The notes beneath the pieces are model-generated. The model saw only the letters and a program-made list of their open reading frames with translations, had not been told where the DNA came from and searched no databases. From Sphingomonas sp. (GTDB taxonomy: Bacteria > Pseudomonadota > Alphaproteobacteria > Sphingomonadales > Sphingomonadaceae), in NCBI GenBank assembly GCA_013001055.1, contig JABDNH010000007.1, positions 124,001 to 188,000 on the forward strand: a DNA stretch of 64,000 bases. Reading direction: 5' to 3'. Shown here piece by piece: positions 41,427 through 48,454 of this stretch (the stretch's first letter is position 1; each line of letters starts with the position of its first letter). The translations under genes were made by a program, and so were the position numbers.

Positions 41427-41885
41427 TTAGAGCGCCTTCACCGCTTCGAGCACCTCTTCGACATGGCCTTTCACGCGCACCTTTGGCCAGGCCTTCACGA
41501 TCTTGCCGTCGCGGTCGAGCAGGAAGGTGGCGCGGTGCATGCCCATAAACTTCTTGCCGTACATCTGTTTTTCGCCCCACGTGCCGAAACCGTCCGAAAC
41601 CTTGCCGTTCTCATCGCTCACTAGCGGCACGGTGAGATCATGCTTCGCGATGAATTTTTCGTGCCGTTCGTTGCTATCACGGCTGACGCCGATCACGCGC
41701 GCGCCTTCGGCTTCGAATTCGGCCAGATGTTCAGAGAAATCGATTGCCTCGGTGGTGCAGCCTGGCGTCATGTCCTTGGGATAAAAATAAACCACCAACG
41801 GCGCCCCGGGTGCATCGAGCCGGATGTCGTTTCCCGCAGTCGTGGTGACCTCGACGGCGGGTGCCTTGTCGCCTTCTTCAAGCAT
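41427..41885 (-). CDS. bcp: Peroxiredoxin (BCP type)
   Basis: [43 protein letters not shown]. Confidence 0.93.
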
Positions 41886-44571
41886 GTCGAACCTTCTCCC
41901 AATAGTCACTGATGCGCTGGCGCGCTTGCTGGCATGCCTCTAGCAACGCATCCCAATCGGGATAACCCGTCACTTCGGCCAATAGGTCCCGCGCCGCGCG
42001 GGCCGGTTTTTTGGTATCGGGGGCAATCAGGCGCATCACCACCAGCATAGCGGTCAGCAAACGGTTGTCGGCGGGCAGTGACTGCGGGGCGTGTCCTGCC
42101 TCGGCGAGCAGCTCGGTGGCACGTGCAAGATCGGGATCGAGGCCTTCGCGCGTGGCCAACTGCGTCACGTGGACGGCAAATTCCAGATCGACCAACCCAC
42201 CAGCACCAAGCTTGATATCGAGGGCCCCTTGCGGGGGCTTGGACACCATCATTTCTTCGCGCATGGCGGCCGCGTCCTTGCGCAGCTTCGCGACATCGCG
42301 GTCCGTGCCATAAATGTCAGCCAGAATGCCATGGACCTTCATCTGCCCCGCCTCGGTGCCAAAGATCGGTCGTGCGCGGCACAGCGCCAGATGCTCCCAT
42401 GTCCATGCTTCGCTGCGCTGGTAGGCGGCAAATGCATCCATCGACACGGCAAGACTGCCCTGCGTTCCTTGTGGCCGCAATCGGGTGTCGACCTCGTAAA
42501 GGGGTCCCCGCGCGGTCGGGACACTCAAGGCTGCGCTGATGCGACTCGCCAGCCGATTGTAGTAATCCGTGGGTCCCAGCGGACGGGGACCGTCCGATTG
42601 TTCCGCAGTCGGCATGTCGTAGAGAAAAATGATGTCGAGGTCGCTGGCATGGGTCAGTGCTTCGCCGCCCAGCCTGCCGAGGCCCACGATCACTAGCCCG
42701 TGGCCATCGAACTTGCCGTGGGTGATCTCGAACTCGCGCCGGGTGCGCTCGCCTAAAGCAAGGATTACGCCCTCGGCAACACGCGCATAGCCCTTGGCGA
42801 TGTCGAGCGGATCATGCTTGCCGTCGATCAGTTGCACGCCGAGCGCGAATCTTTTTTCGCCCACCAGCGCGCGGACGCGGTCGAGTGCCATGTCATATTC
42901 GAGCGCATCGAGCTGCTCGCCCAGTATCGCCGCGAAGGTCTCGGCATCGGGCAACGGATCGAACATAGATCGATCGAGCAGGCCATCGAGCAACGCCGGA
43001 CGCCGCGCCAACTGATGCGCCAGCGCGGGCGCGGTCGATAGAATGCGCGCCAATAACCGCGCCAATTCGGGCCGCGCCTCGAGCAGGCGATAAAAATTCA
43101 CGCCGCTGGGAATCCCGTCGACAATGTCGGCAAAGCGGTTGAGCGCGTGGCCTGGATCGGGGGCGGCCGCGATTGCTTCGATCATCGTCGGCAGCATCGC
43201 TTCGAATGCCGACCGTGCCGCGGACGAGCGCAGCGATCGAGCCCGACCGGTGCGCCATTGTGCAATCAGGCGCAGCGCCCCGTCACGTTCCTCGAGCCCC
43301 GCCCTGGCCAACGCGCGATCGAGCTTTTCGCTATCGGTCGGAAGGACTGCAACCGCGTCATTCGGCATGAGCTTGTTAAACCCGCTTGCGACTGCCTCGA
43401 CGTGCCCCCGCAACCAGTCCAGCCAGCTGGAGACCGTGTTCCAGCCGGCTAGCGCGGCGACGTTTTGCAGCGCGGCCTCGTCACGCGGTATTTCGTGCGT
43501 CTGCCTGTCATCGACCATCTGGATCCGATGTTCGGCGGTGCGCAGGCGGCGATATGCCTCCGCCAGCATTGCCGCGCCATCGCGGTCGAGGTGCCCTTTC
43601 TGGTTGAGCGCCACAATACTATCGAGCGTCGCTGCGGTACGAAGCGTCGGATCGCGCCCGCCATGGATCATCTGCAAGGCCTGCACCGAAAATTCCACTT
43701 CGCGGATGCCACCGCGACCCCGTTTGAGATCGTATCCCGGCCCGAATGTCTGACCTGACGCATAGTGATCGCGCACCCTTGCAGCGATGCTACCGATCTC
43801 CTCGATGACACCGAAATCAAGCGCGCGCCGCCAGACGAAGGGCTGCACTGCCTCGAGGAATTGACTGCCAAGCAGCGCATCCCCCGCGGCGCATCTCGCC
43901 CGAATGAAGGCGGCGCGTTCCCAACCCAAGGCCGCGCTCTCATAATGCGATATCGCCGCTGAAACCGGCAGGGCGATCGGTGTCACCTCTGACGCCGGAC
44001 GCAGGCGCAGGTCGACCCTTGCCACGTAGCCTTCGGTGGTGCGTTCCTGCAGGAGCCGAACCATCTCGCGAGAGATGCGCATGGCAGCTTGCGCGGCGTC
44101 GTCCTGGGCGCGCCGCGGCAGTCGTTCCGGATCGTACAGCAGGATGAGATCGACGTCGGACGAGTAGTTCAGCTCCCGGCTGCCCAGCTTGCCGAGCGCG
44201 ATGGCCGTGATGCCTTCCAGAGGCGCACCCGGCATACGCTCGTCGATCGCCGCTGCAAGCGCACGGTCGATGGCGCGATCGGCAAAGTCGGACAAATGGC
44301 GCGTCGAGGTCTCGAGATCGAACTGGCCCGAAAGGTCTCCAAGCGCCACGGCAAGAGCAAGTGCGTCGCGGCGGCGGCGCAATTCGACCGCCACATTTTC
44401 TTCGCTGCGCGCCAGTGCCGCAGCGACAGCGCAATCCGCCCCCTCATTGACGAAAATTTCGACGATATCGGGCGATCGCTCCATCGCACCGCGCAGGAAT
44501 GGCGCATGGTCGCGCGCGCGGCTGAGAGTGGTTTCTGCGTCGCCAGGGCGGTCCATCCCATGCCCATGCAC
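41878..44571 (-). CDS. glnE: Bifunctional glutamine synthetase adenylyltransferase/deadenylylase
   Basis: IALGKLGSRELNYSSDVDLILLYD, LKRGRGGIREVEFSVQALQ, GRLGGEALTHASDLDIIFLYD. Confidence 0.94.
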   Translation of the reverse strand: MHGHGMDRPGDAETTLSRARDHAPFLRGAMERSPDIVEIFVNEGADCAVAAALARSEENVAVELRRRRDALALAVALGDLSGQFDLETSTRHLSDFADRAIDRALAAAIDERMPGAPLEGITAIALGKLGSRELNYSSDVDLILLYDPERLPRRAQDDAAQAAMRISREMVRLLQERTTEGYVARVDLRLRPASEVTPIALPVSAAISHYESAALGWERAAFIRARCAAGDALLGSQFLEAVQPFVWRRALDFGVIEEIGSIAARVRDHYASGQTFGPGYDLKRGRGGIREVEFSVQALQMIHGGRDPTLRTAATLDSIVALNQKGHLDRDGAAMLAEAYRRLRTAEHRIQMVDDRQTHEIPRDEAALQNVAALAGWNTVSSWLDWLRGHVEAVASGFNKLMPNDAVAVLPTDSEKLDRALARAGLEERDGALRLIAQWRTGRARSLRSSAARSAFEAMLPTMIEAIAAAPDPGHALNRFADIVDGIPSGVNFYRLLEARPELARLLARILSTAPALAHQLARRPALLDGLLDRSMFDPLPDAETFAAILGEQLDALEYDMALDRVRALVGEKRFALGVQLIDGKHDPLDIAKGYARVAEGVILALGERTRREFEITHGKFDGHGLVIVGLGRLGGEALTHASDLDIIFLYDMPTAEQSDGPRPLGPTDYYNRLASRISAALSVPTARGPLYEVDTRLRPQGTQGSLAVSMDAFAAYQRSEAWTWEHLALCRARPIFGTEAGQMKVHGILADIYGTDRDVAKLRKDAAAMREEMMVSKPPQGALDIKLGAGGLVDLEFAVHVTQLATREGLDPDLARATELLAEAGHAPQSLPADNRLLTAMLVVMRLIAPDTKKPARAARDLLAEVTGYPDWDALLEACQQARQRISDYWEKVRHA

Positions 44572-44587
44572 GATTCATCGCAACGAC

Positions 44588-44612
44588 GAAACCATTGGCG
44601 CGTAATCCCGTT
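44588..44612 (+). promoter_or_regulatory. EcfG-type promoter candidate upstream of NepR-like ORF
   Basis: GAAAC-N16-CGTT (consensus GGAAC-N16/17-CGTT, one mismatch). Confidence 0.5.
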
Positions 44613-44623
44613 TGTTTAATACT

Positions 44624-44803
44624 ATGACAGATCGCAACTTCCTTGTGGCAGGGGAGAAGCAGTTTGAGGACCGACAGAAAATCATGGTCGACCCACATTC
44701 TCCCCATGCCGGTATCGTCGCCTCGCTGCGACGCGCCTTTGCGCCTGTCAACGATACCAACGATGACGACGAATTCGCGGAACTTCTAAAAAAGCTACGT
44801 TAA
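44624..44803 (+). CDS. Small NepR-like protein (candidate second anti-sigma factor); alternative start 44684
   Basis: C-terminal 29 aa IVASLRRAFAPVNDTNDDDEFAELLKKLR align without gaps to VARALRSVYDDTLREDVPTEFEDLLKKLK of NepR at 46657-46833. Confidence 0.6.
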   Translation: MTDRNFLVAGEKQFEDRQKIMVDPHSPHAGIVASLRRAFAPVNDTNDDDEFAELLKKLR

Positions 44804-44814
44804 GGGGACGTGCT

Positions 44815-45456
44815 CTACGTATCCTTGGCGAGGTTATCGACCTCACCCATGATCGCCTGCAGTGCAGAACGGTCATCCTTCGCCGAATCCTGGCGCCGGG
44901 ATGGCAATTCGTTGCTGTCGAGCAGGTTTTCTAGCGCCACGCGGCCACGCGCGACGCGGCTCTTGATCGTGCCCACCGCACAACCGCAAATCTGCGCGGC
45001 TTCTTCGTAGGCAAAACCGCCCGCGCCGACGAGAATCAGGGCCTCGCGCTGCGGCTGCGGCAACTGCATTAGCGCGCGCTGCATATCGGCAAGATCGACG
45101 TGCTTATCCTGCGCCGCAGGGGCTGCTAGAATCTTGGCCGCAGTCACATCATCCCATTCCCCCTTGAAGCGCGCGCGGCGCATTTGGCTGAGGAAAAGAT
45201 TGCGAAGGATGATAAATGTCCAGGCACGCATATTGGTGCCGGCCTGGAAGCGTTTGCGCGCTGCCCACGCTTTCAGCAGAGTCTCCTGGACAAGATCGTC
45301 CGCAGTGTCGCGATTGCCTGAGAGCGATCGTCCAAAAGCGCGCAAGTGCGGAATGACCTGTCCAAGCTGATCCTTGAATTCGTCATCGGGCAACGGGACG
45401 GGATCGGGCTTCTTACCCTCCTGGTCTGTGCTGTTCTTGGCCAAGATGATCCCCAA
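44815..45456 (-). CDS. ecfG: General stress response ECF sigma factor EcfG
   Basis: DQLGQVIPHLRAFGRSLSGNRDTADDLVQETLLKAWAARKRFQAGTNMRAWTFIILRNLFLSQMRR..ALILVGAGGFAYEEAAQICGCAVGTIKSRVARGR. Confidence 0.92.
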   Translation of the reverse strand: MGIILAKNSTDQEGKKPDPVPLPDDEFKDQLGQVIPHLRAFGRSLSGNRDTADDLVQETLLKAWAARKRFQAGTNMRAWTFIILRNLFLSQMRRARFKGEWDDVTAAKILAAPAAQDKHVDLADMQRALMQLPQPQREALILVGAGGFAYEEAAQICGCAVGTIKSRVARGRVALENLLDSNELPSRRQDSAKDDRSALQAIMGEVDNLAKDT

Positions 45457-45566: not shown

Positions 45567-46364
45567 TCAGGCCGGCACGGTCGCCGCGTCGAAGAACAGC
45601 GCTTGGCTGATCGCCGCTTTCACCGTGTTGCGCTGGAACGGCTTGGTAATCAGGAACGTGGGCTCGGGCCGCGAACCTGTCAGTAGGCGTTCGGGGAACG
45701 CGGTGATGAAGATCACCGGGACCTTGAAATCGCCCAGGATGTCCTTGACCGCGTCGATACCCGAACTGTTGTCGGCAAGCTGGATGTCGGCCAGCACCAG
45801 GCTCGGGCGGTTGGCTCGCGCTTCGGCGACCGCTTCGTCGCGCGTCACCGCAACGCCGGTCACGTTATGGCCGAGGTCCCTGACGATCGTCTCGATGTCC
45901 ATCGCGATGATGGGCTCATCTTCGATGATCAGCACTTCGGCGCGGGTCTGGCGTTCTATTTCGCCGGTGGCTTCGTTCACGAGGCTCTCGACGTCTTCTT
46001 CGCTGACATCGATCAGATACGCCGTTTCCTTGGTCGAAAAGCCCTCAAGGCTGGTCAGCAACAGCGCCTGACGCGACAGCGGCGTAATTTTCGAAAGCCG
46101 GGCCTGCGCGATATTCTCGGCATTTTCGGTATTGGTCGTGGGGTCTTTGTTGTCCTCGACGTGCGCGCTCGACCAGATCGCATGAAAGGTGCGGTAAAGG
46201 CCAAGGCGCGGGTCGACGTCGCTCGGAAATTCCTCGGGATTATCGACAATCGTTTCCAACGTGGTGCGTACATAATTATCACCGTGCTGCTGGCTTCCCG
46301 TCAAAGCGCGCGCATAACGACGCAGGAACGGCAAATGCGGTGCGAGTTCTTCACCCAGCGACAT
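45567..46364 (-). CDS. phyR: GSR anti-anti-sigma response regulator PhyR (sigma-like domain + receiver)
   Basis: MSLGEELAPHLPFLRRYARALTGSQQHGDNYVRTTLE... sigma-like; VLIIEDEPIIAMDIETIV..LVLADIQLADNSSGIDAV..ITAFPERLL..TKPF receiver. Confidence 0.95.
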   Translation of the reverse strand: MSLGEELAPHLPFLRRYARALTGSQQHGDNYVRTTLETIVDNPEEFPSDVDPRLGLYRTFHAIWSSAHVEDNKDPTTNTENAENIAQARLSKITPLSRQALLLTSLEGFSTKETAYLIDVSEEDVESLVNEATGEIERQTRAEVLIIEDEPIIAMDIETIVRDLGHNVTGVAVTRDEAVAEARANRPSLVLADIQLADNSSGIDAVKDILGDFKVPVIFITAFPERLLTGSRPEPTFLITKPFQRNTVKAAISQALFFDAATVPA

Positions 46365-46485: not shown

Positions 46486-46510
46486 GGAACAAAGCAGTCG
46501 CCCTTTGGTT
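46486..46510 (+). promoter_or_regulatory. Possible EcfG-type promoter in phyR-nepR intergenic region
   Basis: GGAAC-N16-GGTT, toward nepR. Confidence 0.35.
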
Positions 46511-46656: not shown

Positions 46657-46833
46657 TTGGGTAAAGAGAGGACCGGTTCGTCCAAGGACAAGAAGTCCGA
46701 AACGGAAGCGAACCCGCCAGCAGAAGGAAAGTCGTCCGAACAGGTCGCGCGCGCCCTGCGCTCGGTCTACGATGATACCTTGCGCGAAGATGTCCCTACC
46801 GAATTCGAGGACCTGCTGAAAAAACTGAAATAG
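46657..46833 (+). CDS. nepR: Anti-sigma factor NepR (TTG start), absent from ORF track
   Basis: MGKERTGSSKDKKSETEANPPAEGKSSEQVARALRSVYDDTLREDVPTEFEDLLKKLK*; RBS GAGAGGAA upstream; adjacent to divergent phyR. Confidence 0.82.
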   Translation: MGKERTGSSKDKKSETEANPPAEGKSSEQVARALRSVYDDTLREDVPTEFEDLLKKLK

Positions 46834-46839
46834 GCTGTC

Positions 46840-48375
46840 ATGAGCAGCCCCCCGCGCAAACCACGAATGAGTAGCCCGGTCCAGCTTCTGCTGGTCATGT
46901 CCCTGGCGCTGCTCCCGATCGGTGCGCTCCTGACGTATGGTGCGCAGCACGAAATCGCCGAATCCCACAAAGCGCGCGAAAGAGCCGCCGACGCTAGCCT
47001 CGAAACCGCCGCCAGCAATGTCGAGGCCCTGTTTTCCCGCAATGCGCTAGCGCTCCGCATCGCCGCCGGCGGCGCTTTTGGCGCGGGCGCCTCCGATCCC
47101 TGCGAAGCGGCACGTCTGTCGCTGGCTAATACACCGGGGGTGCAGCTGCCCTTTGCGATCGATACGCTCGACAACCAAAGAGTTTGCGGTGACGGCCGTA
47201 TCGACACGATCCGATCCGATCGCGCGGCTACGCCTGGTGAAATCCGGTTTCGCGTCAATGAGGACGGCGATGCCATCCTGATGCGAATAACGGTCGACGG
47301 CGGTACCGTGACCAGCATGTTGCCGGTGGCCGATATCCGCGCCGCCGTCGCCTCTGCCAGCGAAAATATAAAAGTCTTCGGGTTGATCGACACCGAAGGG
47401 CGCCGCTTGCCGGTAATGGCAAACGACGAAGCGCCATTGGACGACCGCATGCCCTATCGCAAGTCGCTGGACTTGGCGAATGAACGGATCGAGGCCGTTG
47501 CGGCGACCGACGTGAGCCAATTGAGCAATGCCGATCGCCTGCTGATCTTCCTGCCAGTCGCTATGTTTGCGCTGGCGGTGCTGGTCGCCTGGGCGATGGT
47601 CAATGGATTGTTGGTCCGGCCGCTGCGCCGCTTGCAGGGCGCGGTTCAAGCGCACGAACCCGACAAGGGCGATTTCCACGTTCCCGAAAAGCTTGGTCCG
47701 GCCAGCGAGATCAGGGATCTTGGATACGCCTTTTCGAATTCGATGCAAAAGATCGAACAGTCCGAAACCGCGATGAGCGATGCGCTCGAAGGTCAGCGCC
47801 GCCTCGTCCGCGAGGTCCACCACCGCGTCAAGAACAACCTGCAGGTCGTAGCCTCGCTCCTCAATATTCATTCGCGCGGCGCAGAAGGCGCAGAAGCGCA
47901 AGCCGCCTATGCCGGGATTGGCCGGCGCGTAGAAGCGCTCGCTGTTGTCCACCGCAACCATTTCGCGGAGGTCGAAGAAAGCCGCGGGATCCAGCTTCGC
48001 CCATTGCTGACGGAGCTGAGCGCGGGTTTGCGCGCCAGTGCAAGCGGGGAGACGTCTTCGCGGATCGAACTCGATCTCATCACGGCTTCGACGACGCAGG
48101 ATACCGCGGTCGCGGTCGCCTTTCTCGTGACCGAGGTGGTCGAGTTCATCCTGACCAATGGAAACGGTGAAACGATCGATATCCAGCTGCGCCCGTCGAG
48201 CGAGTTGACGGCCCGCCTCGAAATATCGTCAGAAGCGCTGATCGAGCGAAATCCTGTCCCGAAAGGCTTCGAGCAATTCGAGCGCATCGTCGAGGGACTG
48301 GCGCGCCAATTGCGCTCGCCGCTTGAGAAAAAAGTCGGGCGCTACGCGGTCGAACTCGCAATCTTTCCGGAATAA
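46840..48375 (+). CDS. Membrane histidine-kinase-like protein, HisKA_2/HWE type with degenerate ATPase domain (PhyP-like)
   Basis: Two TM segments, HAMP-like linker, REVHHRVKNNLQVVASLLNIHSRGA DHp motif; no recognisable G-box in ATPase region. Confidence 0.82.
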   Translation: MSSPPRKPRMSSPVQLLLVMSLALLPIGALLTYGAQHEIAESHKARERAADASLETAASNVEALFSRNALALRIAAGGAFGAGASDPCEAARLSLANTPGVQLPFAIDTLDNQRVCGDGRIDTIRSDRAATPGEIRFRVNEDGDAILMRITVDGGTVTSMLPVADIRAAVASASENIKVFGLIDTEGRRLPVMANDEAPLDDRMPYRKSLDLANERIEAVAATDVSQLSNADRLLIFLPVAMFALAVLVAWAMVNGLLVRPLRRLQGAVQAHEPDKGDFHVPEKLGPASEIRDLGYAFSNSMQKIEQSETAMSDALEGQRRLVREVHHRVKNNLQVVASLLNIHSRGAEGAEAQAAYAGIGRRVEALAVVHRNHFAEVEESRGIQLRPLLTELSAGLRASASGETSSRIELDLITASTTQDTAVAVAFLVTEVVEFILTNGNGETIDIQLRPSSELTARLEISSEALIERNPVPKGFEQFERIVEGLARQLRSPLEKKVGRYAVELAIFPE

Positions 48376-48429: not shown

Positions 48430-48454
48430 GGAACCCTGCCCCGAAAAGCGCGTT
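48430..48454 (+). promoter_or_regulatory. Exact EcfG-type promoter
   Basis: GGAAC-cctgccccgaaaagcg(16)-CGTT. Confidence 0.8.

Follow-up and report, generated by a model that had tools for sequence, protein, structure and literature searches.

The short open reading frame (ORF) between glnE and ecfG in a Sphingomonas sp. genome is very probably nepR2, a syntenic ortholog of the nepR2 gene of Sphingomonas melonis Fr1, and its product would exert EcfG-driven negative feedback on the general stress response through PhyR. The window, i.e., the whole stretch of DNA analysed here, comprises 64,000 nucleotides of a genome of 2.08 Mb. We assign the feedback role through PhyR because of the orthology with Fr1 NepR2 (PMC6599016), which supports the proposal of the preliminary description that the ORF encodes a stress-induced NepR paralogue acting in negative feedback. 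A NepR2-type brake is already known from Fr1 (PMC6599016); the putatively leaderless arrangement of the gene and its link to glnE are the parts that specialists may not expect. Collectively, the results show that a gene studied experimentally in a single strain is a conserved part of the stress-response locus of Sphingomonadaceae.

Genomic context of nepR2

The 59-codon ORF noted previously between glnE and ecfG, convergent with the latter, was confirmed directly from the sequence (Table 1), with 11 bp separating the stop codons of nepR2 and ecfG. The neighbouring phyR product matches the Pfam families PhyR_sigma2 and PhyR_sigma-like and is the presumed binding partner of NepR2. The kinase gene downstream of canonical nepR occupies the same position as phyT of S. 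melonis Fr1 (PMC6599016). The stretch separating this kinase gene from a tatC-like gene convergent with it contains a full-consensus EcfG-type site, GGAAC-N16-CGTT (positions 48430-48454, plus strand), with no obvious gene behind it.

Table 1. Features of the nepR2 region, in window coordinates
Feature	Coordinates	Strand	Remarks
glnE, glutamine-synthetase adenylyltransferase	41878-44571	-	Pfam GlnE, E 7.5e-97; divergent from nepR2
EcfG-type promoter of nepR2	44588-44612	+	GAAAC-N16-CGTT, read from sequence
nepR2 ORF	44624-44803	+	59 codons/aa from ATG; 63 aa from TTG 44612
ecfG, general stress response ECF sigma factor	44815-45456	-	Pfam Sigma70_r2, Sigma70_r4_2; convergent with nepR2
phyR, anti-anti-sigma response regulator	45567-46361	-	NCBIfam NF006623, 383 bits (cutoff 240)
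canonical nepR, anti-sigma factor	46657-46833	+	Pfam NepR PF18557, 35 bits (cutoff 25.7)
HisKA_2/HWE-type kinase	46840-48375	+	Pfam HisKA_2, E 3.9e-17

Conservation of nepR2 and its link to glnE

When 301 family genomes were searched with the single sequence, only the nearest relatives matched clearly, and relatives were instead recovered by synteny around ecfG. Loci were anchored on ecfG in a sample of 121 family genomes, and the Fr1 PhyR domain (PDB 2LFW) served as anchor for 80 named loci from the GTDB collection; 28 further loci of the window's genus were also collected. A profile of the convergent ORF matched in 97 of the 150 loci of the family sample and named set, and six more Sphingomonas loci carry nepR2 with another stretch between it and ecfG. 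The arrangement shared with the named Sphingomonas loci also places the genome of the window in Sphingomonadaceae. The preliminary description had tied its reading to conservation in related genomes, and this is what we found: the ORF is present in 29/30 loci of the window's genus and in 77/80 named Sphingomonas loci, the other 3 being loci in which glnE was not found on the fetched stretch. No nepR2 was found beside ecfG in loci with an EcfG about 67% identical or less, several of which have glnE behind ecfG after only a short gap. Among 196 genomes sampled from the class, 2 had a match to the NepR2 profile at E<=1e-6, both of them Sphingomonadaceae.

It is glnE, and not ecfG, that nepR2 consistently accompanies. 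glnE was detected in every one of the 125 loci that carry nepR2 or belong to the genus set, and where nepR2 is found away from ecfG (G022, G096, G059, and G119), it still adjoins glnE. Within 44560-44620 of the window, the nepR2 promoter and the annotated start of glnE are about 17 bp apart; therefore, the glnE promoter would either overlap it or sit within the nepR2 coding region, and transcriptional interference between the two promoters is possible. This spacing, along with the persistence of nepR2 beside glnE even when ecfG is elsewhere, would suit a highly improbable reading in which the transcript or promoter matters rather than the protein, e.g., if transcription towards glnE or ecfG acted as antisense or interfered with these genes. 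However, such a role is at odds with the strong constraint at the protein level (see below) and with the lowered activity of Fr1 NepR2 carrying single alanine changes (PMC6599016). For the protein-coding nepR2 gene, the fixed link to glnE raises the question of a coupling to nitrogen control.

Several loci depart from the common arrangement. In the S. paucimobilis/sanguinis group (L106, L107, L111, L115, L116, and L119), ecfG and nepR2 are about 1.1 kb apart. The ORFs convergent with ecfG in L053 and L174 look nearer to canonical NepR than to NepR2, and that of L053, TLNEPLDDEFKDLLDKLK, has a GGAAC promoter 9 nt before its ATG; these ORFs possibly represent intermediates or replacements. Genomes G001 and G097 (loci L211 and L214) contain a further NepR-like ORF (RQARIGRSLREVYDGVADSP.PDQFDALLSEL) near a second, more distant EcfG paralogue. 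In Sphingomonas aracearum (L137:4526-4660), near the position of canonical NepR, the NepR core apparently occurs twice in tandem (VYQKTVDEDVP...LLDKLKDVYDSTLLEEVP).

Coding evidence and start codon

Comparison with the nearest relative (G079) over the 59 codons gave pS of 0.54 and pN of 0.073, with 23 of the 33 nucleotide differences in third positions; the contrast between pS and pN was weaker in every other frame. Across 24 loci of the window's genus, the conserved core showed mean pS of 0.63 and pN of 0.25. Judged by substitution pattern, the nepR2 ORF is under purifying selection. When the 1291 open frames of the window were ranked with a profile built from other genera, the nepR2 ORF came first (E 0.0016), and with a second profile that left out the window's genus, it ranked second behind canonical NepR (E 4.8e-7). 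Taken on its own, the sequence of the ORF is only weakly similar to NepR, as might be expected of a chance ORF or of a functionless, decayed remnant of a nepR copy, but it is kept in 29/30 genus loci and in the majority of loci whose EcfG is closely related, under selection and behind a conserved promoter. On these sequence grounds, a chance ORF is excluded, and the alternative as a whole, vanishingly improbable, is refuted by conservation, promoter, and selection.

As for the start codon, TTG 44612 is not plausible because it overlaps CGTT, the -10 box. ATG 44624 is favoured over the start at 44684, the choice that the preliminary description had left to experiment, since both residues 1-20 and the promoter-to-start spacing are conserved.

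Relationship to NepR

The previously described gapless alignment of the C-terminal 29 residues with canonical NepR holds, with 9/29 positions identical by eye. By contrast, the Pfam NepR profile, which had been proposed as a check, left the window protein unmatched: a search with the single protein returned 0 families at E<=10, the gathering score of NepR PF18557 not being reached, and searches of NCBIfam and of PDB sequences gave no match either. The protein shares 16-32% identity with family members beyond the nearest relative. Of the 51 NepR2 family members, 12 matched PF18557 weakly (best E 4.8e-4), and a NepR profile built from the same genomes had no NepR2 match. Comparison of the NepR2 and NepR alignments with hhalign, in turn, yielded a probability of 97.1% (E 6.8e-11) over the C-terminal 32 columns. 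At the level of profiles, the C-terminal core of NepR2 is homologous to NepR, whereas the linker is much more variable in NepR2.

The NepR-like C-terminus of two helices suggested earlier is also predicted by AlphaFold, with modest confidence (mean pLDDT 62.5; about 51-54 over the first 20 residues), the helices spanning residues 29-39 and 49-57. A Foldseek comparison of the model with the PDB gave nothing significant, as expected for two short helices.

Promoter and leader length

The EcfG-like promoter reported in the preliminary description was found in place, followed by 11 nt and the ATG; its -35 box is one base off GGAAC, and relative to G079 both boxes are kept while the spacer has diverged. 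The pattern [GC][GCA]AAC-N16/17-[CG]GTT precedes the nepR2 ORF in 92/97 loci, compared with 7% of random same-strand windows of equal length. In 90 of the 92 loci, the first in-frame start follows 5-12 nt after the pattern, the gap being 8 nt in 44 loci, 9 nt in 43, 11 nt in 2, and 5 nt in 1. Among these 90, the start codon is ATG in 87 and the -35 box is GCAAC or GAAAC in 89. Gaps of 10-12 nt are typical of the window's genus, and 3 relocated nepR2 copies retain a gap of 8-9 nt. For canonical nepR of the same loci, the GGAAC promoter usually lies some 30-150 nt from the start (in the window, GGAAC-N16-GGTT at 46486-46510), so that this gene mostly has a longer leader than nepR2.

Transcription from ECF promoters starts some 5-10 nt past the -10 box. 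A promoter-to-ATG gap of 8-12 nt thus leaves no room for a Shine-Dalgarno sequence, and the nepR2 mRNA is probably leaderless or near-leaderless, with at most a few nt of leader. The base preceding the ATG is mostly C, which fits a pyrimidine-purine start site. From such near-constant spacing, a feedback inhibitor is expected to be translated from a leaderless message. In the literature searched, we found nothing relevant on leaderless mRNA in connection with EcfG or in Sphingo- lineages, and no mention of the short nepR2 spacing or of the constant glnE link. A more far-reaching idea, which we consider quite unlikely, is that of a dedicated leaderless brake, whose spacing would be kept for translation without a Shine-Dalgarno sequence, possibly favoured under stress; because its promoter adjoins glnE, a stress response that fires could additionally disturb glnE transcription and thereby link stress to nitrogen assimilation.

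The arrangement also provides a rule for finding nepR2 where Pfam misses it: G[CA]AAC-N16-CGTT, 8-12 nt, ATG, divergent from glnE and usually convergent with ecfG.

Proposed mode of action

Gene #1448 of S. melonis Fr1, named NepR2, adjoins ecfG (#1447) and belongs to the EcfG regulon; an EcfG reporter went up upon its deletion and down upon its overexpression, and the protein co-precipitated PhyR (PMC6599016). Its activity was lowered by L31A and F35A, though not by R32A and M46A (PMC6599016). According to alignment A1, in which row L024 is shifted by one codon, L35, R36, and F39 of the window protein correspond to L31, R32, and F35 of Fr1 NepR2, and the 2 residues that Fr1 NepR2 requires for activity are thus present in the window as L35 and F39. 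Locus L094, with a PhyR 99% identical to that of Fr1 (PDB 2LFW), encodes MNADAQPVEKSRQGDYVVRRPRSTDALGHSLRGTFGCSDLPEDFAMLLKRIDRATH at the nepR2 position and carries all 4 residues mutated in Fr1 (L31, R32, F35, and M46). We note that L094 and L125, titled Arthrobacter sp. TPD3018 and Microvirga sp. SRT01, are Sphingomonas-type loci, the PhyR domain of L125 being 84% identical to that of Fr1, and their names look wrong.

In the proposed mechanism, phosphorylated PhyR would remove NepR from EcfG under stress, and EcfG, once free, would transcribe nepR2 into an mRNA with little or no leader. NepR2 would then bind PhyR through its two helices, competing with NepR, and the freed NepR would return onto EcfG, so that the stress response would be damped or switched off. 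The same feedback model has been proposed for Fr1 (PMC6599016) and, for a paralogue whose expression is EcfG-dependent, in Methylobacterium extorquens (PMC4814048).

The preliminary description had named either EcfG or PhyR as the target, and the Fr1 data favour PhyR over EcfG (PMC6599016). As a second anti-sigma factor, NepR2 would, in the manner of canonical NepR, bind and inhibit EcfG itself instead of working via PhyR; the helix signatures of canonical NepR are retained in NepR2, and two NepR paralogues of S. meliloti bind the sigma factor (PMC4814048). We nevertheless regard direct action as unlikely, because in two-hybrid experiments co-expression left both Fr1 NepR2 and EcfG unstable, an effect not seen for NepR with EcfG, and the authors suggest that no complex is formed (PMC6599016). 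Two paralogues of M. extorquens likewise appear to bind PhyR and no EcfG (PMC4814048), and the far greater variability of the NepR2 linker also speaks against direct inhibition of the sigma factor.

Comparison with known systems

Canonical NepR (PF18557) shares with NepR2 a C-terminal core, predicted to form two helices in NepR2, and an upstream EcfG-type promoter, but differs in gene position, -35 box, and leader length. In Sphingopyxis granuli TFA, the name nepR2 has also been given to a gene whose product resembles NepR and whose expression is driven by an EcfG promoter (PMC7083833). That gene is located upstream of ecfG1, in one operon with it and behind a GGAAC promoter (PMC7083833), and by this position we rejected it as a syntelog of the window gene.

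The precedent put forward in the preliminary description was Methylobacterium, where NepR paralogues do exist. However, those of M. extorquens belong to a different lineage, and a separate origin from NepR2 is likely, given that no NepR2-profile match at E<=1e-6 was found outside Sphingomonadaceae among the 196 class genomes.

The closest precedent is found in Sphingomonas itself, in the syntenic nepR2 of Fr1 (PMC6599016). Fr1 nepR2 is likewise next to ecfG (PMC6599016), and the near-Fr1 loci L093 and L094 share the order glnE-nepR2-ecfG. Similar size, an L-R-x-x-F helix, and an EcfG-type promoter are further features common to the Fr1 and window genes. The two have nevertheless diverged considerably: the near-Fr1 protein of L093 is 19% identical to that of the window, the stretch before helix 2 reads as an acidic DDDE in the window protein as opposed to P-D/E-D in the Fr1 type, and the gap between promoter and start measures 11 nt in the window against 9 nt in the Fr1 type.
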